IMG/VR virus record: IMGVR_UViG_3300007634_000017
Coordinates: 1-32,305 of that record
Source: a virus
Direction: 5' to 3' (one strand)
Length of the DNA: 32,305 nucleotides
This document shows positions 14,298-25,752 of the stretch, piece by piece. Below the pieces are notes generated by a model. It was not told the DNA's origin. It did no database searches and saw only the letters and a list, made by a program, of their open reading frames with translations. How positions within the stretch are numbered: position 1 is the stretch's first letter; each line of letters begins with the position of its first letter. Made by a program: the position numbers and the translations under genes.

Positions 14298-14323
14298 AAA
14301 AAAGGGGGAACTTTCGTTCCCCC
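14296..14323 (-). terminator. Rho-independent terminator of gp32
   Basis: On the minus strand the stem GGGGGAAC (14323-14316) pairs with GTTCCCCC (14311-14304) around a GAAA tetraloop and is followed by seven T (14303-14297). In the plus direction no T-run follows, so it acts on the leftward gp32 message, 18 bases after its stop codon. Confidence 0.85.
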
Positions 14324-14341
14324 CGAATCCAAATATCTGGA

Positions 14342-17039: not shown

Positions 17040-17070
17040 AATATATTCTCTCTCAATCAATTAGGTGGCT

Positions 17071-17099
17071 ATTATACTTCTTTCAGAAACAAATGTCAA
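17071..17099 (-). promoter_or_regulatory. Early sigma70 promoter E1
   Basis: Minus strand TTGACA-17-TATAAT, a perfect consensus, starting 32 bases before the first gene of the MazG-gp33 operon. Its spacer (TTTGTTTCTGAAAGAAG) is nearly identical to that of the promoters at 19438 and 23408. Confidence 0.9.
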
Positions 17100-17103
17100 G
17101 GGC

Positions 17104-17268
17104 TTATTTAGCTTTAGATTCTTTTAACTTCCTAAATTGCCATCTTAGAAACCATTTCATTCGCCGGAAGTACTCTTTCGAATCGTAGTCAGGGTATTTT
17201 CCGTCATACCCTTCACACTCTTCACAATGAAGTGTCCACTGTTTAAAACAAAATTCTCTGAAAGTCAT
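17104..17268 (-). CDS. Hypothetical small aromatic/basic protein
   Basis: 54 residues: MTFREFCFKQWTLHCEECEG, then a Trp/Arg/Lys-rich end (MKWFLRWQFRKLKESK). The ATG overlaps the stop of the preceding gene (TAATG), so translation is coupled; a longer in-frame reading is only overlap with that gene. C14-x-x-C17 may bind metal with further Cys/His but the set is incomplete. No family recognised. Its stop is followed at once by promoter E1 for the next operon. Confidence 0.55.
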   Translation of the reverse strand: MTFREFCFKQWTLHCEECEGYDGKYPDYDSKEYFRRMKWFLRWQFRKLKESKAK

Positions 17269-17825
17269 TAGTAGTACCAGCTGTTGTAGTGTTCTGCTTC
17301 CGCAGTAGTAGGACGGGCGCAAGAGTAAGAAGAAGTCTTGAAACCACCGTAGTTGTCCAGACGTTTCTTCATCTCTTCGCCAATGAAAGAGTTGGGAACC
17401 GCACGAACATTCTGACAGTCATAACCTTCTGAACCTTTGACAGTCTGAGACGCAATCTCACGAACGATCACAGTCCGAGCAGTAGGTTTCGCAACAACTT
17501 GGTAGAGATCGACTTGAGTCTGTTCGTAACCCCAAGAGTCAACGAACAGGTCACCGACCTTAACGCCGGCGGCAAGTTCTGCTGCCTTGACTTTCTGCGC
17601 TTCTTTACGTTTTGCGCGATACTCGGTAACAGCGAGACGATTATCAATGAACTCTTGTTGCGCTTCATACATGCGTTCAACACTACGGTAACGAACGTGG
17701 TACTCAGTCTTGTAACCAAGACGGGCACGAGGAGCAAGACGGTCGCACTTGGCGATCATACGTTCTTCATCAATAGTAAGAATAAGGTCGTGTTTCGCGA
17801 ACAACTCAATCATTTCATTTTTCAT
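17268..17825 (-). CDS. Conserved phage protein of unknown function (GDLFVDSWGYEQT)
   Basis: 185 residues. Residues ~85-125 (GVKVGDLFVDSWGYEQTQVD, LYQVV) match a segment found in many phage proteins of unknown function. The N-terminal part is rich in Arg/Lys/Glu with a helix (YRAKRKEAQKVKAAELAAG). The start MKNEMIELF is behind GAGAGATGTATT. First gene of the operon driven by promoter E2. Confidence 0.65.
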   Translation of the reverse strand: MKNEMIELFAKHDLILTIDEERMIAKCDRLAPRARLGYKTEYHVRYRSVERMYEAQQEFIDNRLAVTEYRAKRKEAQKVKAAELAAGVKVGDLFVDSWGYEQTQVDLYQVVAKPTARTVIVREIASQTVKGSEGYDCQNVRAVPNSFIGEEMKKRLDNYGGFKTSSYSCARPTTAEAEHYNSWYY

Positions 17826-17855
17826 AATACATCTCTCTCAATCAATTAGGTAGCT

Positions 17856-17883
17856 ATTATAACATAACTGGGAACAATGTCAA
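17856..17883 (-). promoter_or_regulatory. Early sigma70 promoter E2
   Basis: TTGACA-16-TATAAT on the minus strand, immediately downstream of the stop of the next operon. Its leader TAGCTACCTAATTGATTGAG is shared with promoter E6. Perfect hexamers, spacer one base shorter than ideal. Confidence 0.85.
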
Positions 17884-17902
17884 GGGCCCTAGCCAAAATA
17901 AT

Positions 17903-18208
17903 TTAAATATTTTTCTCACGCAGGTGTCTTATTTTTGCTTCGACGATATCAAGAACACATAACTCAGTTCCCCCGATGTGCCACTTATAGAGTTCTCCGC
18001 CTCTACTTTTAACCCCACCGTCATAATCTTTCCAGTCATACACAGTGATCGGAGTTTCTTCTCCGTAGAAGTTATATCCAACGAACTCCCATTCGGTACA
18101 AATCTTATCTTCTACATCAAGCGCATCACGAAGATAGGTAGGTTCTCCAAGAACCTCGACTAACTCGTAGTAAGTGGCGTCAATGTAACCTTTTAAACTA
18201 GTCATCAT
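17903..18208 (-). CDS. Conserved phage protein with structured 5' leader
   Basis: 101 residues (100 if ATG 18205 is used; GAGG lies seven to ten bases before the two ATGs). The motif set GYIDATYYELVEVLGEPTYL, then TEWEFVG, TVYDWKDYD and KWHIGG matches a small protein family recurrent in bacteriophages with no known function. It is the only gene behind promoter E3 and has a ~130-base leader filled by a multi-branched RNA structure, whereas other early leaders are about 30 bases, so its expression is probably specially regulated. Confidence 0.65.
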   Translation of the reverse strand: MMTSLKGYIDATYYELVEVLGEPTYLRDALDVEDKICTEWEFVGYNFYGEETPITVYDWKDYDGGVKSRGGELYKWHIGGTELCVLDIVEAKIRHLREKNI

Positions 18209-18232
18209 AAAACCTCAAAAATAATAAATGGT

Positions 18233-18338
18233 GGGAGGAGCAGTGAACCGAAGTTCCTATTCCTGATTCCAGATGTCTCGGAGACAAGCAGTGAACCCCG
18301 AAGGTTCTTAATCAGGAGACCAGACCTCCCCATCAACA
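18233..18338 (-). ncRNA. Candidate structured leader RNA or small RNA
   Basis: On the minus strand, stem P1 GGGAGG/CCTCCC (18330-18325 with 18238-18233) encloses stem P2 TCCTGATT/AATCAGGA (18317-18310 with 18268-18261, eight perfect pairs). Inside P2 are hairpins GAACC-TTCGG-GGTTC (18307-18293) and TGTCTC-C-GAGACA (18286-18274). Between P2 and the P1 closing strand is GAAC-TTCG-GTTC (18256-18245) with a UUCG tetraloop. An 11-base repeat (AGCAGTGAACC, plus strand) occurs at 18239-18249 and 18287-18297. P1 begins just after the expected start site of promoter E3 and ends 24 bases before the start codon. No known riboswitch family was recognised. Confidence 0.6.
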
Positions 18339-18344
18339 GTAGCT

Positions 18345-18372
18345 ATTATACACGATTCAGCTACAAAAACAA
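18345..18372 (-). promoter_or_regulatory. Early sigma70-type promoter E3
   Basis: TATAAT is perfect; -35 TTGTTT with 16-base spacer is weaker than in other early promoters. The expected start near 18338 places the structured RNA at the very 5' end of the transcript. Confidence 0.65.
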
Positions 18373-18411
18373 GGGCTTTCTTAGAACAATTTGTTATATC
18401 AACCTAACTTC

Positions 18412-18801
18412 TTATTTCTTTTTAGTGGCAGGAGACTTCTTCTTAACGGGGGCCTTTGCGTTAAAGGTCTTTCGTTTGACAGTAGGTTTCTTAACAGTAG
18501 GTTTCTTCTCAGGTGTCTCTACGGGAGCCTTAACAGTTTTCCGCACCTTCCTTTTGGGTTTTGTCACAGTTTTCTTTGGTTGAGGAAACTTTTTAGACAG
18601 AAACTCATTGACTGATAACCCGCACGTTCTCAACTCCTTTATAAAACGTCTGTGGGAGTCCATGTCCCACCCGTGAGCGGGTTCCAAGAACTCACCGTAA
18701 TGATCCATCACAATATCAGATAATCGCTCACACTCCAAGGTATCCTTGTCGTAGAGGTACCTAACCTTACGGTCGTAATTCAACTTAACAATCTTTTCCA
18801 T
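18412..18801 (-). CDS. Lysine-rich protein with histone-H1-like tail
   Basis: 129 residues. The first ~72 form a mixed domain (MEKIVKLNYDRKVRYLYDKD, LSDIVMDHYGEFLEPAHGWD) of no recognised family. From residue ~73 the chain is a Lys/Pro/Thr/Ala tail with PKK and VKK repeats (TVKKPTVKRKTFNAKAPVKK), like the C-terminus of histone H1. It probably binds DNA or RNA non-specifically; as an early gene it could compact host DNA or protect phage DNA. Low-complexity codon use is confined to the tail. Last gene of the operon from promoter E4; its start overlaps the preceding stop. Confidence 0.65.
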   Translation of the reverse strand: MEKIVKLNYDRKVRYLYDKDTLECERLSDIVMDHYGEFLEPAHGWDMDSHRRFIKELRTCGLSVNEFLSKKFPQPKKTVTKPKRKVRKTVKAPVETPEKKPTVKKPTVKRKTFNAKAPVKKKSPATKKK

Positions 18802-19085
18802 TATGCCACCAACTGAACCCGACCATCAAACTCGGTTATACTCATCTCAAAGGGAACGATCATTTCAATACCAACTCGGTTAATATCGAACCGGTCAGAA
18901 CCGCTGCGAGAGTCAGTCACATATACCTTGTAACCATGACACATAGGAACACCATTGTCGTAGAACATCTCACCCTTCTCAATAACACGACCTACCAGAT
19001 AACTGTCGGGACGGCCGTCCATTGGTCGGAAGTCAAGCGCTTTAATCATATCACCAACATTCGCTACATTCTCAAATCTCAACAT
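18801..19085 (-). CDS. Hypothetical protein of early operon
   Basis: 94 residues, compact beta-rich pattern (VGDMIKALDFRPMDGRPDSY, LVGRVIEKGEMFYDNGVP, YKVYVTDSRSG, EMIVPFEMSI). Looks like a small barrel, resembling in style the VGDTIQW family encoded at 23441-23644 and 24049-24429, but residues are too different to claim homology. ATG overlaps the preceding stop codon (19085). Confidence 0.55.
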   Translation of the reverse strand: MLRFENVANVGDMIKALDFRPMDGRPDSYLVGRVIEKGEMFYDNGVPMCHGYKVYVTDSRSGSDRFDINRVGIEMIVPFEMSITEFDGRVQLVA

Positions 19086-19225
19086 TATATTAAATCTCCT
19101 ATCTCAGCTAATCGGTTGGTGATGCGTCGGTACTCACTTTTGTAGTACGTTTCGTTATAACACTCCGCAGCATCAATCAACATTACAAGGTCGTTCATCA
19201 AATCACCAATTTCACTATCAATCAT
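19085..19225 (-). CDS. Hypothetical short helical protein
   Basis: 46 residues, MIDSEIGDLMNDLVMLIDAA then ECYNETYYKSEYRRITNRLA. GGGGAGG lies six bases before ATG 19225, the strongest Shine-Dalgarno in the operon; an upstream in-frame alternative start lies within the previous gene. Predicted as a helical hairpin with acidic first half. Family not recognised. Overlaps the previous stop by four bases (ATG-A type). Confidence 0.5.
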   Translation of the reverse strand: MIDSEIGDLMNDLVMLIDAAECYNETYYKSEYRRITNRLAEIGDLI

Positions 19226-19404
19226 TTGTAACCTCCCCACCTTACCCACGCATACTGAGGTTTCTGACAAAATTGTCCTATCTCATCAAAACCCAACACA
19301 GTGTATCCGTCTAAAGGATCGGTACCTGCTTCATACTCAACGAGATCCCAACCCGCTTTAAACAACTTGACTTCTTTGATATCTTCAATAAGGCGAACTT
19401 GCAT
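19222..19404 (-). CDS. Hypothetical protein, first gene of early operon E4
   Basis: 60 residues, MQVRLIEDIKEVKLFKAGWD then beta-rich to the end (AWVRWGGYK). The ATG follows GAGAGAGAATATATT, the shared early leader. Family not recognised. Its transcript continues through three overlapping genes to the Lys-rich protein. Confidence 0.55.
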   Translation of the reverse strand: MQVRLIEDIKEVKLFKAGWDLVEYEAGTDPLDGYTVLGFDEIGQFCQKPQYAWVRWGGYK

Positions 19405-19437
19405 AATATATTCTCTCTCAACTCAATTTGTACAGCT

Positions 19438-19466
19438 ATTATACTTCTTTTAGAAACAAATGTCAA
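19438..19466 (-). promoter_or_regulatory. Early sigma70 promoter E4
   Basis: TTGACA-17-TATAAT, perfect consensus. The region GGCCCTTGACATTTGTTTCT is nearly identical to that of E1 and E7, and the leader shares CTGTACAAATTGAG with E7. Confidence 0.9.
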
Positions 19467-19485
19467 GGGCCTGAAGCTAAATAAA

Positions 19486-20436
19486 TCAACAATTCCAGAT
19501 ATAAATCTTATCCTGTTTCTTCTTACCTTTCTTCAACGAGTCAACTTTCTGACCCATCTGTTGTTTGAGGTCTTCCTCATCATGACATACCGGTAACCCA
19601 AATGATACCGCATCCTCATACATTTTAGGTGATATGTTAAAACAGACGTGACCACCCGTCTTTATGTTATCGACGCATTTCTGCCAGAGAGGTATAAAGA
19701 ATTCGGTGTAGAACTTCTCATCAGATTCCCAAGGTGTCATATGTTCATATATTTCTAAGTTAACATAAGGAGGGGAAGTAAGTACAAAGTCATAGTCCAG
19801 TTTACTGAAATCTACATCAAGAGCACTCTCCCAAATCATATCAAGTTTAGATTTGTCTTCGTCAGGGAACAGAGTGTTTTCAAGTCCGGACTCTTCGTTT
19901 AAGAATGTCATCATGTCATCATAGGCATCAACCATTTCCACGTTAGTATCGATACCCGTGTAATCAATCCCTAAACTCCACGCACCTAACATTCGACCAC
20001 CCCATCCCGCTGTAGGGTCTAGTACACTCTTTGCGTTATACTTTCGATAAAGATACTTGGCGGTTGTTGCCTTAAACATGACAATCGAACCCAAGTTGAT
20101 TCTAAAACATTCGAAGACATTACCGGCAGGTGTCCTACCTCCACGGTTTCGTTTCTTGGTAGAGTCAATCAGTTTGTCCCATTGCTCTTTGTCGCTGTGG
20201 ATATCATAGATAGTTTTACCATCTTGACGTTTACACTTTAATAGGTTTTTTAATTGGAAGTGATATAGGAATGGATTGCCCGAGAAGTTATTAGAATTCG
20301 CTACGGCGTCGAATTTGTTGAGATTAAACAAATCCTTTCTGAGTCCTGCCACATCGATATTCTTATGATTCTCGATATCTTCGACTGTGACAGAATCCAA
20401 ATGTAGATTGACTGGTTTTAATTCAACTTTAGACAT
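19486..20436 (-). CDS. SAM-dependent DNA methyltransferase
   Basis: 316 residues from ATG 20436, whose ATG lies inside the end of the nuclease gene (eight-base overlap); a longer in-frame reading only duplicates the neighbour. SAM-binding motif DPTAGWGGRMLG (residues 140-151) is followed by catalytic TSPPYVN (220-226), so it is an amino-methyltransferase of the N6-adenine/N4-cytosine class, with SAM motif before catalytic motif. The ~135 N-terminal residues may recognise DNA. Its partner gene encodes a PD-(D/E)XK protein, suggesting protection of phage DNA against that nuclease, or a modification with an independent role. Confidence 0.85.
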   Translation of the reverse strand: MSKVELKPVNLHLDSVTVEDIENHKNIDVAGLRKDLFNLNKFDAVANSNNFSGNPFLYHFQLKNLLKCKRQDGKTIYDIHSDKEQWDKLIDSTKKRNRGGRTPAGNVFECFRINLGSIVMFKATTAKYLYRKYNAKSVLDPTAGWGGRMLGAWSLGIDYTGIDTNVEMVDAYDDMMTFLNEESGLENTLFPDEDKSKLDMIWESALDVDFSKLDYDFVLTSPPYVNLEIYEHMTPWESDEKFYTEFFIPLWQKCVDNIKTGGHVCFNISPKMYEDAVSFGLPVCHDEEDLKQQMGQKVDSLKKGKKKQDKIYIWNC

Positions 20437-21103
20437 TAAATAATCTTGATACCTTTTCTTCGGATAATGTGCGGTTTGCGTGTTTGAAGTAATCTGAGAA
20501 CTTAGCACCACCAGACTGAGTCCACATGTTCCGTAGATAAAAGGCAAGACCTCTACCTTGGTAGTCGGCAGCCTTGAGTCTGGCATTAAATTCGGCAACT
20601 CGTTTCATACTTTCTTGTTCGAATTCCTCAATGATTCTTCGCTGCTCTTCGTTTACAATATCTTCGCCCATGTACATCGTAGTCTCATTAGACTTTTCTG
20701 AACAGAACAAGTAGACATAACCATCTTTAGGCAGCCCACCATTGTACATAGGAGCATTGTTTTTACTACTCTTACATTCTAATAGAACTACGGTATTGTC
20801 TACTTTAAATACGAAGTCCGGAGAGTTGTGTGTACCGGTGGGTTGGGTGAAGTATACATTGTCAGGAACACTATCATGGTGCTCACCTCGCAACAGAGCA
20901 TCTCGGAAGTCAACGACACTAGTAAATCCTAGACTAGACGCTAGTTCTTTGAAGTCACTCTGAACTAATGAATTGCTCACTAGCACATCTTCTACGGCAT
21001 CTTCGTGACTCGCTACATTGTGTACAGTACCGCTCACCGCCTGATAGTTTCTGAAGTAAGGTAATGCGATTAATTGATCGTGTATTGCTTTTGATAGATT
21101 CAT
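20429..21103 (-). CDS. Putative PD-(D/E)XK restriction-type endonuclease
   Basis: 224 residues from ATG 21103; the TTG five codons upstream falls in the RBS stretch. Residues 94-111 read S-PD-F..., then VVLLECKSS: P95-D96, E109, K111 form a canonical PD-X12-E-x-K site of type II restriction-like nucleases. It continues YVYLFCSEKSNETTMYMG, a beta strand pattern also seen in restriction enzymes. The overlap with the methyltransferase gene makes a restriction-modification-like operon from promoter E5. Alternatives: a nicking or host DNA-degrading enzyme. Target site cannot be predicted. Confidence 0.65.
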   Translation of the reverse strand: MNLSKAIHDQLIALPYFRNYQAVSGTVHNVASHEDAVEDVLVSNSLVQSDFKELASSLGFTSVVDFRDALLRGEHHDSVPDNVYFTQPTGTHNSPDFVFKVDNTVVLLECKSSKNNAPMYNGGLPKDGYVYLFCSEKSNETTMYMGEDIVNEEQRRIIEEFEQESMKRVAEFNARLKAADYQGRGLAFYLRNMWTQSGGAKFSDYFKHANRTLSEEKVSRLFNV

Positions 21104-21132
21104 AGTATACTCTCTCACTCAATTAAGTAGCC

Positions 21133-21162
21133 ATTATAACACATGTTTCGATTACTTGTCAA
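21133..21162 (-). promoter_or_regulatory. Early sigma70 promoter E5 (nuclease/methyltransferase operon)
   Basis: TTGACA-18-TATAAT on the minus strand, leader with the shared CTTAATTGAGTGAGAG stretch, ~30 bases before the nuclease ATG. Confidence 0.85.
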
Positions 21163-21170
21163 TACATTTA

Positions 21171-21620
21171 TCACTTACACGCTAAATAAATTTCTCTCTC
21201 AGTACCATACGCCTCGTGCTCCCAAGGATGGTCTCTATAGGCAACTCCAACATACTCAACACCATCAAAGGTCTGCTTCGTAGTCAGACAAGTCTCGCCA
21301 TCATCGTTTGTTCTCAAAACGAATCCATTATTGATCAGTCGACCAGATGCCATCTGTTTTGCGTGAACCATTTCGTGGGCAATATTTACCATCAGATCTT
21401 CCATAGGGATTCTACCTTCAGAATCACTGCGAGCAAGTTCAATAAAAACCTCTTCATCATCACCGTTACAGTAACCACCGGCATCACCATCACAACGGGG
21501 TTTGAAGTCTAAGTCAAACAAACATTCTTCAAACTCATCCAGACCTAAGTGACTGTACACTCGACCTACGTAGTCTACCAGCTTCTGACTGGTAGTACCC
21601 TGAACAATCATGTTATACAT
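21171..21620 (-). CDS. HEMVH zinc metallopeptidase-like protein 1
   Basis: 149 residues. NIAHEMVHAKQMASGRL gives the HExxH zinc motif (residues 82-86), and PWEHEAYGTEREI (132-144) supplies a glutamate suited as third ligand, the arrangement of SprT-like zincins. C43, C51 and C112 are scattered, so no zinc ribbon is obvious. A clear relative is encoded at 25285-25695. A phage zincin could process a virion or host protein, or be a DNA-protein crosslink protease; substrates are unknown. The ATG overlaps the stop of the previous gene (TAATG). Confidence 0.75.
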   Translation of the reverse strand: MYNMIVQGTTSQKLVDYVGRVYSHLGLDEFEECLFDLDFKPRCDGDAGGYCNGDDEEVFIELARSDSEGRIPMEDLMVNIAHEMVHAKQMASGRLINNGFVLRTNDDGETCLTTKQTFDGVEYVGVAYRDHPWEHEAYGTEREIYLACK

Positions 21621-21877
21621 TATAATGTAATCTCAATTCGTTCTGTAGGAGGATTCAACTCTCTGAACCCTTTAGACTCAAGAATCTCACGAACACGTTC
21701 ACGGTCAAGAGTGTCACCGCCACCCCAATGATCAGCAATGTCCATACACTTGACAGCGTACTCAAGGATAGCTTCTTGGATATCAGGGATACCACACCCA
21801 AGGTCGTATATGCCATCTTTGCCATAGAACAAGTGGACATAGTCACGGAAGTCATTTAACGCAGCAGGAAAATTCAT
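21620..21877 (-). CDS. Hypothetical protein, first gene of operon E6
   Basis: 85 residues from ATG 21877 (GAGAGAG upstream); a second ATG two codons earlier is possible. The protein, MNFPAALNDFRDYVHLFYGK, has an acidic/aromatic N-terminus and a segment with D-x-x-D/R (CMDIADHWGGGDTLDRERVR). It looks like a small folded domain, family not recognised. It is co-transcribed with zincin 1. Confidence 0.55.
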   Translation of the reverse strand: MNFPAALNDFRDYVHLFYGKDGIYDLGCGIPDIQEAILEYAVKCMDIADHWGGGDTLDRERVREILESKGFRELNPPTERIEITL

Positions 21878-21908
21878 AATCATCTCTCTCTCAATCAATT
21901 AGGTAGCT

Positions 21909-21936
21909 ATTATAACATAACTGGACACAGAGTCAA
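21909..21936 (-). promoter_or_regulatory. Early sigma70 promoter E6
   Basis: TTGACT-16-TATAAT on the minus strand. The segment AGTTATGTTATAATAGCTAC is shared with promoter E2, and the leader has the same TAATTGATTGAGAGAG. Confidence 0.8.
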
Positions 21937-21940
21937 TAGC

Positions 21941-22195
21941 CTACTTAGAACTATTAAGCATATCGATATGCGCTTTTATTTCTTTTCGGTTTAACTTGCG
22001 AAACTTGCGTCGTGATACACCCCAAGATTTCAGGGGAGCGGTGAATACCTGAAGGATTCCGGTATTGCGAGGAACGTAACCTATGAGGTCAGTGCCTTTG
22101 GTTACATAAGTGTGGTTAGGTACATAATCATAAGTACCCCAGTCAGTAATTTCTTCGCGCCACATAAAGTGACAGGCATCTTCATACGTCATCAA
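21941..22195 (-). CDS. Hypothetical protein, last gene of operon E7
   Basis: 84 residues (83 from ATG 22192). GGAG lies ten bases upstream. MTYEDACHFMWREEITDWGT..., a Trp/Tyr-rich first half, and a basic C-terminal part (RRKFRKLNRKEIKAHID). Family not recognised. It overlaps by 14 bases the small gene upstream, so their translation is linked. Confidence 0.55.
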   Translation of the reverse strand: MMTYEDACHFMWREEITDWGTYDYVPNHTYVTKGTDLIGYVPRNTGILQVFTAPLKSWGVSRRKFRKLNRKEIKAHIDMLNSSK

Positions 22196-22316
22196 CTAAT
22201 CTCCAACATTCATAATATCTTCTAATACTAGATAGGACACCATAATAGTCATCCTGATTATCTGTGCTAAACGCTAACCACATCACCAATATGACACGGG
22301 CGAAAAACATTCTCAT
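22182..22316 (-). CDS. Small hydrophobic secreted/membrane protein (44 residues)
   Basis: 44 residues, MRMFFARVILVMWLAFSTDN then QDDYYGVLSSIRRYYECWRL. ATG overlaps the preceding stop codon by four bases (ATGA), and it overlaps the following gene. N-terminus is a charged residue plus a hydrophobic segment (FFARVILVMWLAF), like a signal peptide or a single membrane span. Evidence is translational coupling, not homology; function unknown. Confidence 0.5.
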   Translation of the reverse strand: MRMFFARVILVMWLAFSTDNQDDYYGVLSSIRRYYECWRLVDDV

Positions 22317-22852
22317 GACATCCACTCAGGGGTCACCGCATTTTTCCAAGTAGCAAAGGCACTCTTCTCTTCACGATAGTAGTTACGATACCCGTCAACT
22401 ACGTCATCGCGTTTACAATGGTCAGGCATACACTGCGGCATCACTGATTCATGTGCGGTCTGTTTGATATTCTTAGGTGCGAGCCACAACATGGAACCTA
22501 AATCTGTATAGGTCTTATGAACACGTCCATAACGACGTTCGTATTCTTTGGCAGTTGCCTGAAAGTGTTTGTACAACCAACGATAGTTCTTGTCATTCTC
22601 ACGACACCAGATGTTTGATGGGTGATTCACGTGAGATGCTTTATATAAAAGTCTCTCTATCGCGTCACCCGCAAGTCGCCAACGTTTGATGTTACGACCA
22701 TTCTTAGTCTTATCGGTGTACTGTTCGCCATCAAGTATACGGTGCGCAGTAGAGAGTAACTGACCATACTCAGTGACCATCTTGACTACGTGCTTGTCGC
22801 ACATCAACTGCGCGGCCTGTACTGGATCGTTATCTAACTTAAAAATGTTCAA
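22313..22852 (-). CDS. Conserved phage protein (CDKHVVKM family), TTG start
   Basis: 179 residues. NIFKLDNDPVQAAQLMCDKH, then VVKMVTEYGQLLSTAHRILD, belong to a family found in many phages and annotated without function; conserved Cys-Asp-Lys-His suggests a metal or catalytic site. The start is TTG 22850-22852, overlapping the TGA of the preceding small gene, with GGGAG ~10 bases upstream; there is no earlier ATG and conserved sequence begins at residue 2. The C-terminus contains basic, aromatic pieces (YRNYYREEKSAFATWKNAV). Nucleic-acid modification is conceivable but unproved. Confidence 0.7.
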   Translation of the reverse strand: MNIFKLDNDPVQAAQLMCDKHVVKMVTEYGQLLSTAHRILDGEQYTDKTKNGRNIKRWRLAGDAIERLLYKASHVNHPSNIWCRENDKNYRWLYKHFQATAKEYERRYGRVHKTYTDLGSMLWLAPKNIKQTAHESVMPQCMPDHCKRDDVVDGYRNYYREEKSAFATWKNAVTPEWMS

Positions 22853-22962
22853 TCGTCATCTCCCATATTTTTAATTTCTAACCAGATGGCCATGAGTATA
22901 GAGATACCTACTAAGCCAAGAACCTCACTAAGCGTGAACGATAAAAGAGTATCAATAAGCAT
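22849..22962 (-). CDS. Small membrane protein (37 residues)
   Basis: 37 residues: MLIDTLLSFTLSEVLGLVGI then SILMAIWLEIKNMGDDD. RBS GGAG seven bases before ATG 22962, start overlapping the previous gene's end. One transmembrane segment (about residues 12-27) with acidic C-terminus, so N-in/C-out or the reverse cannot be decided. The overlap with the TTG of the next gene supports translation. Function unknown. Confidence 0.55.
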   Translation of the reverse strand: MLIDTLLSFTLSEVLGLVGISILMAIWLEIKNMGDDD

Positions 22963-23158
22963 ATTTTTCTCCGTAGATTTCACCGAACACTACATCAACT
23001 TCTTGGGCAGTCAGAGTATCGTCAACAACAATACAATCGACATCACCGTTAAGCAATAGAAACTCCATCTTGTTAACAAACACATCCTTCGTGGGGTTGT
23101 AGTAGTAGGTCATGGTGTTCTCAGTCTTATTCTTATAAACGGTCATAGGGAGATCCAT
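22952..23158 (-). CDS. Hypothetical protein of operon E7
   Basis: 68 residues, MDLPMTVYKNKTENTMTYYY. ATG shares a base with the preceding stop (TAATG), with GAGGT ten bases upstream. Beta-rich first half, acidic centre (CIVVDDTLTAQEVDVVFGEI). Family not recognised. Confidence 0.5.
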   Translation of the reverse strand: MDLPMTVYKNKTENTMTYYYNPTKDVFVNKMEFLLLNGDVDCIVVDDTLTAQEVDVVFGEIYGEKYAY

Positions 23159-23376
23159 TACACAGTTACCTCAGTATTGAAGATTTCACGCTCTTGGTAC
23201 ATACCAGTCACCTCGGTACTTTCTTTACGGACAACAACATAGGTATTTTCATACCCATAACTTTCGAGTTGCTGTTGGTAAACGAACGCGGTTTGGCGAT
23301 CATAACATGGGGTGAAGAAACCAGCAAGTGGTTTGTCGGTCTCGGCACATCGAACAACATAGGTAATCTCTGACAT
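23158..23376 (-). CDS. Hypothetical protein, first gene of operon E7
   Basis: 72 residues from ATG 23376 (MSEITYVVRCAETDKPLAGF). A longer in-frame reading starts in the promoter and is rejected. Likely an alpha/beta domain (AFVYQQQLESYGYENTYVVV). Shares the GAGAGAGAAGATT leader. It heads a six-gene overlapping string down to 21941. Confidence 0.55.
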   Translation of the reverse strand: MSEITYVVRCAETDKPLAGFFTPCYDRQTAFVYQQQLESYGYENTYVVVRKESTEVTGMYQEREIFNTEVTV

Positions 23377-23407
23377 AATCTTCTCTCTCTTCTCAATTTG
23401 TACAGCC

Positions 23408-23436
23408 ATTATACTTCTTTTAGAAACAAAAGTCAA
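23408..23436 (-). promoter_or_regulatory. Early sigma70 promoter E7
   Basis: TTGACT-17-TATAAT. From the -35 flank to the leader it is almost identical to E4 (shared TTTCTAAAAGAAGTATAAT), consistent with duplication of a promoter cassette. Confidence 0.85.
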
Positions 23437-23440
23437 GGGC

Positions 23441-23644
23441 CTACGCTAAATTAATTTTAATAACATTTAGATTGGACATGGCATCACTATCGAGAAAGTG
23501 TCTGTCCATAGGTTCAGGGCCGGTGGCAATACTGTAGTAGTCAATACCATCACCTGTAAGGTCTTCATGAACAAACGCTATCTGACCTGAAAGGACACCA
23601 CGAGGAGTGTCCCATTGAATTGTGTCACCAACTGAACCGTACAT
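23441..23644 (-). CDS. Small phage protein, VGDTIQW family (copy A)
   Basis: 67 residues. The stretch VGDTIQWDTPRGVLSGQIAF, VHEDLTGDGIDYYSIATG and FLDSDAMSNLNVIKI aligns with the C-terminal half of the protein encoded at 24049-24429 (VGQTIRW, FIHRDL, SNAMEHLEVENL), so the two are paralogues. Predicted small beta-barrel. ATG overlaps the preceding stop. Confidence 0.65.
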   Translation of the reverse strand: MYGSVGDTIQWDTPRGVLSGQIAFVHEDLTGDGIDYYSIATGPEPMDRHFLDSDAMSNLNVIKINLA

Positions 23645-23943
23645 TATGCTCTCCTCTTACGTGGTTTAAAACCTAGATATTCCATCGCTGCCAGCGGAGA
23701 GGATTCTTCACTCAACTCGATATAATCTTCAACTGAAGTAGTCTTACAAAGGAAGTTAACCCACGACTTCCAAGGTTTAGAACCGTACTTGAATCGCGCA
23801 ATGAAAGTTGGTTGTGGCTTACCGTGCCAAGATGGGTGGCAGTCAGGTCTTGCTACTTCCATGTTGACAGACTTAGTGTGACGACCCTGATACATTAGGT
23901 ACATACCGTCCCAAGTGAATTCTTCTTTGTTGAATCTAGTCAT
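23644..23943 (-). CDS. Conserved phage protein (EFTWDGMYLMY)
   Basis: 99 residues from ATG 23943 (another ATG two codons upstream has the RBS too close). EFTWDGMYLMYQGRH, FIARFKYGSKPWKSWVNFLC and ESSPLAAMEYLGFKPRKRR are a combination I have seen in conserved phage proteins without known function. The C-terminus is basic (RKRRA). First gene of the two-gene unit from E8. Confidence 0.6.
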   Translation of the reverse strand: MTRFNKEEFTWDGMYLMYQGRHTKSVNMEVARPDCHPSWHGKPQPTFIARFKYGSKPWKSWVNFLCKTTSVEDYIELSEESSPLAAMEYLGFKPRKRRA

Positions 23944-23977
23944 AATCATTTACTCTCTTATCTCAATTTGTACAACC

Positions 23978-24006
23978 ATTATACAATACTTCTTTTGAAA
24001 ACACCA
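23978..24006 (-). promoter_or_regulatory. Early sigma70-type promoter E8 (weak -35)
   Basis: TATAAT is perfect, and the leader CTCAATTTGTACAACCATTATA (plus strand reading) is shared with E4 and E7 up to the -10. The -35 position at 17-base spacing reads TGGTGT, a poor match. A perfect inverted repeat lies just upstream (24017-24040). Confidence 0.55.
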
Positions 24007-24016
24007 GTGGTAAACG

Positions 24017-24040
24017 TGACCAACCGAGAAGTGTTGGTCA
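24017..24040 (-). other. Inverted repeat TGACCAAC-N8-GTTGGTCA
   Basis: Eight perfect base pairs around an eight-base loop, in the gap between the stop at 24049 and promoter E8. No T-run follows on the minus strand, so a rho-independent terminator is not well supported; it may be a processing hairpin or an operator just upstream of the weak -35. Confidence 0.5.
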
Positions 24041-24048
24041 TCAGATAT

Positions 24049-24429
24049 TTACGCTACCATTTCCGCGAAACAAATTCCCGTAGATAGGTTCTCTACCTCC
24101 AGATGTTCCATCGCGTTACTGTTTAGTGACACAGTAGTTTTCTCAGTTCGGACAATATAGAAGTCAGCGTTAACTTTTTCAGAAGCAGTCGGAAGGTCAC
24201 GGTGAATAAATGATACAGTACCCTCTTGGGTCTGCAATCCAGTTCTCCAACGAATAGTTTGACCGACTCTAGCAAACTTCGAATGATAGACAATGGTGTC
24301 CATCTTAGCATGAGCGACACATAACGAATTCGGATTCGGGAAAGTATCTTGCGCTTCATACGCTTGCAACTTAGTTGCGTAAGGGCCCGCCTTGCGGAGA
24401 TTGGTACTGATCGTCATAACATAAAACAT
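24049..24429 (-). CDS. Phage protein, VGQTIRW family (copy B)
   Basis: 126 residues from ATG 24429, with GAGGTGAT seven bases upstream; the longer in-frame reading runs through the promoter. The N-terminal ~45 residues (MFYVMTISTNLRKAGPYATK) are unique; the rest (VGQTIRWRTGLQTQEGTVSF, IHRDL, NADFYIVRTEK, SNAMEHLEVENL) is homologous to copy A at 23441. The paralogue pair is separated by one unrelated gene. Function unknown; single-gene transcript from E9. Confidence 0.6.
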   Translation of the reverse strand: MFYVMTISTNLRKAGPYATKLQAYEAQDTFPNPNSLCVAHAKMDTIVYHSKFARVGQTIRWRTGLQTQEGTVSFIHRDLPTASEKVNADFYIVRTEKTTVSLNSNAMEHLEVENLSTGICFAEMVA

Positions 24430-24456
24430 AATATCACCTCTATCTAATAAGTCCCT

Positions 24457-24485
24457 ATTATACTCGCGTTTAAAGCAATAGTCAA
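24457..24485 (-). promoter_or_regulatory. Early sigma70 promoter E9
   Basis: TTGACT-17-TATAAT on the minus strand; spacer and leader differ from the other cassettes and the gene has a classical SD instead of GAGAGAGA. Confidence 0.8.
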
Positions 24486-24557
24486 TACTATTCGCCATTT
24501 ATTTCATGAATAGTCCCTATCCATTCAATTGATATTCGTAGACCAGACCTTTCAAAT

Positions 24558-24565
24558 TATAAATA
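24558..24565 (+). promoter_or_regulatory. T4-type late promoter (plus-strand island 1)
   Basis: Exact TATAAATA, predicted start near 24571, leader of ~31 bases with AGGTG before the ATG at 24602. Confidence 0.8.
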
Positions 24566-24601
24566 TCAGATACACTAATAATAAAAAAAACTAGGTGTAA
24601 T

Positions 24602-25081
24602 ATGATCGACCCTATAACGGCTGTGGCTATGGCGACATCTGCGTTCAAGACTGTTCAAAAAATGGTTGCTATGGGACGTGACGTGGAAGATACCTTTGGC
24701 CAGATGGGCAAGTGGTACTCAGCCGTGTCAGATTTCAACGAAGCTAAACGCAGAGCATTAAATCCTCCACTATTTCGAAAATTGGTAGATAGGACATCAG
24801 TAGAAGAAGAAGCTCTCAACACACTCATCCAAGAGAAAAAGATTCAGCAACAAGAAGCTGAACTAAGAAGTCTGTTAACTTACGCATATGGCCCATCTGG
24901 TTATCAAGAACTTATCGAGATGCGTAGAAAGATTCGCGAACAACGAGAAAAGACGATCTATGCTCAGGAACGTAAACGAAAGAATCTTATTAGTAACACG
25001 ATAAACATTTCAATGATAGGTGCTCTTGGGTACTTCCTATATCTTTTAATTTCTTTCATGTACAGTATCTGGCCACAATGA
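24602..25081 (+). CDS. Conserved T4-like phage protein, tail-anchored membrane protein
   Basis: 159 residues. N-terminal part MIDPITAVAMATSAFKTVQK, GRDVEDTFGQMGKWYSAVSD, then a long charged helix (EEEALNTLIQEKKIQQQEAE) and YGPSGYQELIEMRRKIREQR, matching a family common in marine T4-like phages with no established role. The C-terminus is a single transmembrane span (INISMIGALGYFLYLLISFM). Late expression and the membrane anchor suggest lysis, envelope association or particle assembly. It overlaps the next gene by ATGA. Confidence 0.68.
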   Translation: MIDPITAVAMATSAFKTVQKMVAMGRDVEDTFGQMGKWYSAVSDFNEAKRRALNPPLFRKLVDRTSVEEEALNTLIQEKKIQQQEAELRSLLTYAYGPSGYQELIEMRRKIREQREKTIYAQERKRKNLISNTINISMIGALGYFLYLLISFMYSIWPQ

Positions 25082-25284
25082 TACACGCATTCGTTCTGAC
25101 AGTGATGTTAAAGGGAGTCATCGTATCTAATGATATGTACTTCGCTAGCATTAATGTGTGTCAAGAATATGCTCATGCTATAGTACACGGAAAACATACG
25201 AACGTCCATCATAACAATATGGTGGGCGCTTACTGTATACCGACCAAAGTCGATCCATCGACAATTACTCTCTACGTCAAGTAA
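25078..25284 (+). CDS. Small exported Cys-containing protein
   Basis: 68 residues, MIHAFVLTVMLKGVIVSNDM. The first ~16 residues are a hydrophobic export-like segment. Two cysteines (C28, C53) may bridge in the periplasm. Similar short proteins (signal plus a Cys pair near the end, AYC...P) follow the preceding gene's homologues in marine phages as far as I recall. A spanin- or lysis-accessory role is possible, unproved. Its stop abuts the stop of the converging zincin gene with no gap. Confidence 0.6.
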   Translation: MIHAFVLTVMLKGVIVSNDMYFASINVCQEYAHAIVHGKHTNVHHNNMVGAYCIPTKVDPSTITLYVK

Positions 25285-25695
25285 TTAATCCATCATTTCA
25301 AAAGGGAAACAATCGAGGAACAGTTCACGTTCTAGACGATACGCTTCTTTCTCCCATGGCTGGTTGGTGTAAGCATAGTTGTCAGCGTTACGACCTTTCC
25401 ATTTCCAGACACCGACAGCAGTCAACTCACCGCGAAGGAACTGGCGAGCGTGAACCATCTCATGAGCGAGTGCCTGCATTTGTTTTAGGAATGACTGGTC
25501 ACGTCTAGCGATCTGGATTTCAGCATAGTCCACGTCACCTTCACATAGACCTTGCGCAGAGTTATCAAGTTGAGTCTTGAACTTGATAGTGACCATTCGC
25601 GAAGTGAATCGGTGAATCTTCAACGCACCCATAAGACGGGCGACGTACTCTTCAACGATCTCTGGTTTGGCGTGACGACCTTCAATACTATACAT
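25285..25695 (-). CDS. HEMVH zinc metallopeptidase-like protein 2
   Basis: 136 residues. LAHEMVHARQFLRGEL provides HExxH (residues 78-82) and QPWEKEAYRLERELF (112-126) the third-ligand glutamate. The order and spacing (HEMVHA-x-Q ... PWE-x-EAY-x-x-ERE) matches zincin 1 at 21171-21620, so they are paralogues diverged elsewhere. Single-gene unit from promoter E10 with the shared early leader. Substrate unknown. Confidence 0.75.
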   Translation of the reverse strand: MYSIEGRHAKPEIVEEYVARLMGALKIHRFTSRMVTIKFKTQLDNSAQGLCEGDVDYAEIQIARRDQSFLKQMQALAHEMVHARQFLRGELTAVGVWKWKGRNADNYAYTNQPWEKEAYRLERELFLDCFPFEMMD

Positions 25696-25723
25696 AACGA
25701 CTCTCTCAATCAGTTAGGTAGCT

Positions 25724-25752
25724 ATTATACCACCACTAACTACATTATACAA
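25724..25752 (-). promoter_or_regulatory. Early sigma70-type promoter E10
   Basis: TTGTAT-17-TATAAT on the minus strand; leader TAGCTACCTAACTGATTGAG as in E2/E6. A second TATAAT overlaps the -35 (25744-25749). Confidence 0.7.

Follow-up and report, generated by a model that had tools for sequence, protein, structure and literature searches.

The subject of this analysis is a structured RNA encoded on the minus strand of the DNA, 32,305 nucleotides (nt) long, of a marine bacteriophage (IMG/VR record IMGVR_UViG_3300007634_000017, positions 1 to 32,305), the whole of which is referred to here as the window. The RNA, at 18233..18331, lies between a predicted early promoter and a gene for a protein of 101 amino acids (aa) at 17903..18208, both likewise on the minus strand. 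The promoter comprises a -10 box, TATAAT (18345..18350, inside TATAATAGCTAC at 18339-18350), and a weak -35 element, TTGTTT (18367-18372), separated from it by a spacer of 16 nt; both were assigned from the consensus only, and the promoter scan did not list this promoter because of its weak -35 element. The first stem of the RNA begins 13 nt downstream of TATAAT and ends 24 nt before the ATG at 18208, in keeping with an initial annotation made from the sequence of the window, which had placed the element a few bases past the expected transcription start and 24 bases before the start codon. A probable Shine-Dalgarno sequence of the downstream gene, GAGG, is found at 18213..18216, and no open reading frame of at least 50 aa overlaps the leader RNA on either strand.

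All five stems described in the initial annotation are present on the minus strand and nest without conflict. P1, of 6 base pairs (bp), is formed by a 5' strand, GGGAGG (18325..18330), and a 3' strand, CCUCCC (18233..18238), and closes the second of two modules; P2, of 8 bp (18310..18317 with 18261..18268), is the helix common to both, and the 3' strands of these two helices are supported by the comparison of 13 homologs. The first module (half A) contains the hairpin H1, GAACC-UUCGG-GGUUC (18293..18307; 5 bp), the junction strand ACUGCU (18287..18292), the hairpin H2, UGUCUC-C-GAGACA (18274..18286; 6 bp), and the junction strand UCUGG (18269..18273). The second module (half B) has the same junction strands, UCUGG at 18320..18324 and ACUGCU at 18239..18244, together with the hairpin H3, GAAC-UUCG-GUUC (18245..18256; 4 bp with a UUCG loop). 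Read from P2 in either direction, the elements follow one order, P2 - UAG - hairpin (GAAC..GUUC) - CACUG(CUU) - stem - (AU)CUGG - P2, in which the third stem is a closed hairpin in half A (H2) and is open to the 5' and 3' ends in half B (P1). Because this order repeats around P2, the RNA is, on the evidence of its sequence, a single three-way junction that has been duplicated and fused in circular permutation through the shared helix. The duplicated segment CTTCGG..TTCACTGCT that had first drawn attention is real and reflects these two copies.

A search with the downstream protein retrieved ten near-identical phage contigs, which were useless for covariation because their leaders were identical. 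True homologs were found with a pattern containing the duplicated GTTCACTGC, followed by three more scans and a scan for next-gene neighbors, and amount to 13 distinct full-length double RNAs in about 38 IMG/VR contigs, namely, that of the window and 12 from other contigs of marine T4-like phages. Across these 13 homologs, both sides are altered in 14 of the 30 pairs, and every stem has at least one such pair: double changes affect 4/8 pairs of P2, 2/5 of H1 (e.g., AU to GC), 5/6 of H2, and 2/4 of H3, and in P1 an A-U to G-C double change occurs in the window sequence itself. In the alignment, 96.9% of the cells are paired and there are 32 double-change cells against 9.1 in shuffles, with none of 500 shuffles (0/500) reaching as far; when the partners were slid by 1 to 3 columns as a control, only 1 or 2 double-change pairs remained. 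The 13-sequence alignment was fitted to the structure of the covariance model and so is biased toward it, whereas the alignment of the first 11 sequences, made with plain MAFFT and hence unbiased, has changes on both sides in 11/30 pairs. The model matches the window at 18230-18335 with 113 bits, and two members outside its alignment, L373 and L348, score 103 and 102 bits (E about 1e-28). The double changes in the long-range P2 settle the matter against the local hairpins favored by RNAfold for some members. Folding energy was uninformative, being no better than that of shuffled sequence over 146 nt (z = -0.02), with a z of -0.8 for the core and a range of -0.02 to -2.2 across tests; energy alone would miss the fold, which comparison detects far beyond chance. 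At the level of sequence comparison, the mutations that match each other across its stems in related viruses prove the fold; the initial annotation had named a lack of covariation in homologous leaders as grounds for giving the element up, and covariation is what was found.

Beyond the helices, the double RNAs possess a conserved unpaired core of the kind looked for in riboswitches. CACUG and CUGG are invariant in each half (13/13), and UAG is kept in all halves but one, half A of the window, which has UAA. L373 and L348 dispense with the CUU and AU letters in half A and retain CACUG and CUGG, from which we take the core to be UAG/CACUG/CUGG. This core is nearly constant in both halves as the stems and loops vary, and its conservation, exceeding what structure alone requires, counts in favor of junctions that bear a site. 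A C.A mismatch at the half B end of P2 (18318 opposite 18260 in the window) recurs in 13/13 double RNAs and may be a wobble pair that the junction requires or else a constraint from another pairing. An additional module in L204 carries CAGG where others have CUGG; should the two CUG strings pair with each other at the base of the third stem, this change would, we suggest, make a U.U into a U-A.

In most homologs the -35 element reads TTGAC[A/T] or otherwise comes close to TTGACA. The distance from the -10 hexamer to P1 is 13 to 14 nt in 17/17 leaders, and P1 starts about 6 to 8 nt from the expected transcription start in all of them; the gap between P1 and the next ATG is 15 to 28 nt in the 15 leaders whose ATG was located directly. 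The 12 nt 3' of P1 are 85% pyrimidine in the leaders compared, the pyrimidine-rich tract beginning where P1 ends, 8 to 18 nt upstream of the Shine-Dalgarno sequence, and a same-strand coding region follows the RNA in every promoter-linked case read. Taken with the compensatory changes, this conserved position between promoter and start codon on the same strand assigns the RNA, as judged from sequence, to the structured cis-acting leader RNAs. Elsewhere in the window, leaders behind the same type of -10 box are short, AU-rich, and devoid of any comparable fold, as had been remarked in the initial annotation. Several early promoters on the minus strand of the window (17065-25729) share an almost identical -10 box and leader start, TATAATAGCTACCTAATTGATTGAGAGAG, which may itself be a translation signal.

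The number of modules varies. A single module of 54 to 57 nt, in which P1 is open and P2 is capped, is found behind the same type of promoter in L341-L347, L350, and L365 (E of 3e-9 to 2e-6 with the double model), and in L204 and L212 a double RNA is immediately followed by a single one. L242/L237 have a single module opened at P2 (E of 1.8e-5), and L247 has a probable one between the end of an SSB-like gene and uvsX (gene names read from sequence); the latter is marginal by the model (E of 0.05 and 0.006), its membership resting on its intact core and stems, and neither the L247 nor the L242 module has an evident promoter. Each record that could be searched in full has a single locus. Such variation of module count in one slot (two, one, and two plus one) is as expected of a binding domain. 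At L242:630-1034, beside the single module, about 540 nt without an obvious gene include a manA-like RNA (46 bits, E of 1.5e-10, under the gathering score) and possibly another, weak one; at L131:10500-10576, a gene for tRNA-Pro(TGG) adjoins the double RNA's promoter on its upstream side.

The gene behind the RNA in the window, termed here the GYID gene, encodes a product of 101 aa (GYIDATYYELVEVLGEP) with no Pfam or PHROG match. Its AlphaFold model is confident (pLDDT of 86), and since it has no relative in the PDB, the fold gives no hint of a ligand. The family occurs in varied phages (the window at 17903-18208, L011-L014, L015, L016, L318, L348, and L372), with tblastn matches in Prochlorococcus phage P-SCSP2 and a spring myovirus. 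The GYID gene and then a gene for a 185-aa protein follow the RNA in the window, L149, L153, L160, and L204, and the 185-aa gene follows it directly in L159, L169, L342, and L350; elsewhere its place is taken by a SprT-like gene (L152), a gene for a MSDQ..YLENYG protein (L122, L131, and L373), or others (L365 and L348). The tie between RNA and downstream gene that the initial annotation had implied holds only in part: the RNA precedes no fewer than five distinct genes, and certain relatives of the GYID gene either lack this leader or have another structured RNA in its place.

In L318/L319, about 15 to 75 nt before the GYID gene, there is a long hairpin, GAUGGGG..CCCCAUC, with a T7 run immediately ahead of the start codon, a leader that by its sequence looks like an attenuator. 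It is related in form to another structured RNA absent from the catalogs, GGGG..CGGUC-UUUCGAAGAUUCCGACUGACAGGUAAGUG-GACCG..CCCC with a U-run behind it, in which a core of about 28 nt is nearly fixed while the stems change. Copies lie at about 2080-2140 in L160 (reverse strand), 9050-9115 in L208, 1730-1790 in L358, 2075-2135 in L359, 3385-3445 in L348, and 3600-3660 in L372. In some phages it is a terminator-like hairpin after a gene; in others it lies in the leader of the GYID gene or comes right after the double RNA. The L372 copy has no Rfam match.

The window matches no family of Rfam 15 even at E values up to 10, which bears out the earlier impression that no known riboswitch class is involved. 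The homologous RNAs matched no family at the gathering threshold, and single modules gave chance-level matches only; beyond these, Rfam at strict and lax thresholds picked up just the tRNA in L131 and the manA-like RNA in L242. DNA similarity to named phages and plasmids was likewise limited to chance matches, and a match in an Aeromonas phage proved to be antisense inside a gene rather than a homologous leader. A single-module model run over 15 named phages, mostly T4-like and including Melnitz, Mosig, HTVC008M, KVP40, S-PM2, and C48C1, found nothing better than an E of 0.3, and a pattern scan of the genome collection yielded five matches, none of which was scored by the model. A tRNA or tRNA-like RNA was rejected, as ARAGORN found none and the ACC(A) after P1 (CUCCUCCCACCA) is confined to the window sequence. 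Many type I-F CRISPR arrays share GTTCACTGC with the RNA, but mimicry of their repeat (GTTCACTGCC...) was also rejected: the match is due to chance, because GTTC covaries with its stem partners, being GCCC, GTCC, AGTC, or ATTC in relatives. An intrinsic terminator made by P1 was set aside, and retained only as a possibility, as the U-rich tract begins too late in several members. A strong intrinsic terminator, with a 9-bp stem and a T-run, is present on the minus strand at 14303-14324, directly after the gene for a single-strand-binding protein. The RNA is thus an uncatalogued family of a known general kind, the structured phage leader RNA, with an architecture for which we found no counterpart among known families.

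We favor, with conviction and doubt in about equal measure, the reading that this is a conserved structured leader RNA acting in cis on the early transcript that it begins, probably controlling the gene behind it, and carrying two equivalent putative binding sites. Letters that do not vary in the junctions, a duplicated module, and a constant position ahead of a gene are best accommodated by this reading, in whose favor the riboswitches and riboswitch candidates already known from marine T4-like phages also count. The unpaired letters of each three-way junction would form a specific site, and the joining of the two modules through the common P2 would give the RNA a pseudo-twofold build in which the two sites are equivalent. 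Were these sites occupied by a metabolite, ion, or protein, the closing helix P1 would most likely be tightened, and the stability of P1 could alter early termination or ribosome access, since P1 ends at the pyrimidine-rich tract 8 to 18 nt before the Shine-Dalgarno sequence. We infer that something binds and that P1 is the switch, and we likewise infer the direction of control. More specifically, the RNA might be a ligand-sensing class, that is, a duplicated three-way-junction aptamer fused through a shared helix, pseudo-twofold and possibly cooperative, that is carried as an exchangeable early-promoter cassette by marine T4-like phages; this we put forward only tentatively, with perhaps one chance in three of being right.

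Several observations weigh against a cis-acting element with two binding sites. We identified no ligand, protein partner, or expression platform, and no canonical terminator was found at the RNA in the window. The genes behind the RNA are mutually unrelated, and few of them have a known function. In L304, L316, L320, and L335, only a small hairpin, GGGGA..UCCCC, comes after the same promoter and initial leader sequence, GTTGGTTGGGGA. An alternative hairpin that could oppose P1, GGGAGA-UCUGG-UCUCCC, is preserved in 95% of the cells in double RNAs but shows no covariation, and it is absent from the single-module RNAs of L342, L350, and L365.

An alternative that we regard as unlikely is that the RNA is a 5'-terminal structured cap shielding strong early mRNAs from 5'-end-dependent decay, with its exact fold mattering only for compactness. 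The nearness of P1 to the expected start in all leaders, the minimal hairpin GGGGAGAGUCCCC filling the same slot in relatives, and the irrelevance of the identity of the downstream gene would suit such a cap; however, a simple hairpin would then suffice, and the near-invariant letters in 26 half-modules and the duplication of the whole junction would go unexplained. The remaining early leaders of the window that were read, which have no such structure, and the modules of L247 and L242, which have no evident promoter, are also difficult to reconcile with it.

A translational operator for a dimeric phage RNA-binding repressor is a narrower form of the cis-acting reading, whose probability includes its own, and taken by itself it is likewise rather unlikely. 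Two symmetric sites would suit a homodimer, and the probable single module of L247 lies between two genes, the SSB-like gene and uvsX. T4-like phages use the RNA-binding repressors RegA, gp43, and gp32, a precedent that counts for this proposal. Against it, no RNA-binding protein was recognized regularly beside the RNA, the 101-aa product has no relative of solved fold, and the sites were not seen to overlap the ribosome site.

Antitermination by HK022 put acts through the beta' zinc-binding domain, and a put-like RNA here would bind the transcribing host RNA polymerase and confer resistance to pausing and termination, which we consider improbable. As with HK022 putL (PMC9378689), the RNA stands directly behind an early promoter, at a fixed spacing and with indifference to the downstream gene. 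However, its architecture differs from that of put, the first strong minus-strand terminator downstream in the scanned stretch (14324-14303) is about 4 kb off, other early promoters have no such RNA, and internal single modules such as that of L247 do not fit. The initial annotation had offered a riboswitch or operator in an early leader or else a small regulatory RNA; its structured leader behind an early promoter, belonging to no known class, stands, and the free RNA is the less likely because every promoter-linked case read has a coding region next on that strand. That the leader releases a trans-acting small RNA or decoy, which would bind a host factor, is also improbable: although there is one locus per phage record despite a changing downstream gene, as though the RNA were a gene that merely borrows a promoter, the coding region is close behind in promoter-linked cases, the RNA of the window is not ended by a terminator, and the match of GTTCACTGC to CRISPR repeats is due to chance.

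Regulation in marine T4-like phages has been read mostly from promoters and proteins, to which an uncatalogued RNA family with a proven fold is now added. Its modular evolution is clear, as one slot may hold none, one, two, or three modules, and its architecture, a fused dimer, is unusual. As a defined RNA of 55 to 100 nt, it is amenable to probing for a ligand or protein partner, and the covariance model can be used by others to find further members. If the RNA does sense a metabolite, it would offer a direct view of what the phage measures in its host at the start of infection.

Among known systems, HK022 putL/putR (PMC9378689) resemble this RNA in their place, being structured RNAs behind a phage early promoter, but differ in size and fold: they measure about 70 nt and consist of two stem-loops, with no three-way junction. 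The manA and wcaG motifs (RF01745 and RF01761), riboswitch-candidate leader RNAs mostly from marine metagenomes and T4-like cyanophages (PMC2864571), are comparable as structured leader candidates but unlike it in sequence and fold. PhotoRC-II is another riboswitch or candidate of marine T4-like phages (PMC2864571), and further ones have been described (PMC9964418); the RNA of the window matches none of them. The glutamine riboswitch (glnA and Downstream-peptide), present in the marine T4-like phages Melnitz and Mosig (PMC9004378), is likewise a small structured RNA of such phages, with no Rfam match of the window to either form at E values up to 10. Tandem riboswitches, such as the glycine riboswitch, and the two-domain nadA/NAD+ motif also have two similar domain copies per leader, and these copies are consecutive (PMC7297122). 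Compared with them, the RNA of the window differs in that its copies are joined, circularly permuted, by a helix that they share and in that single-module versions exist.
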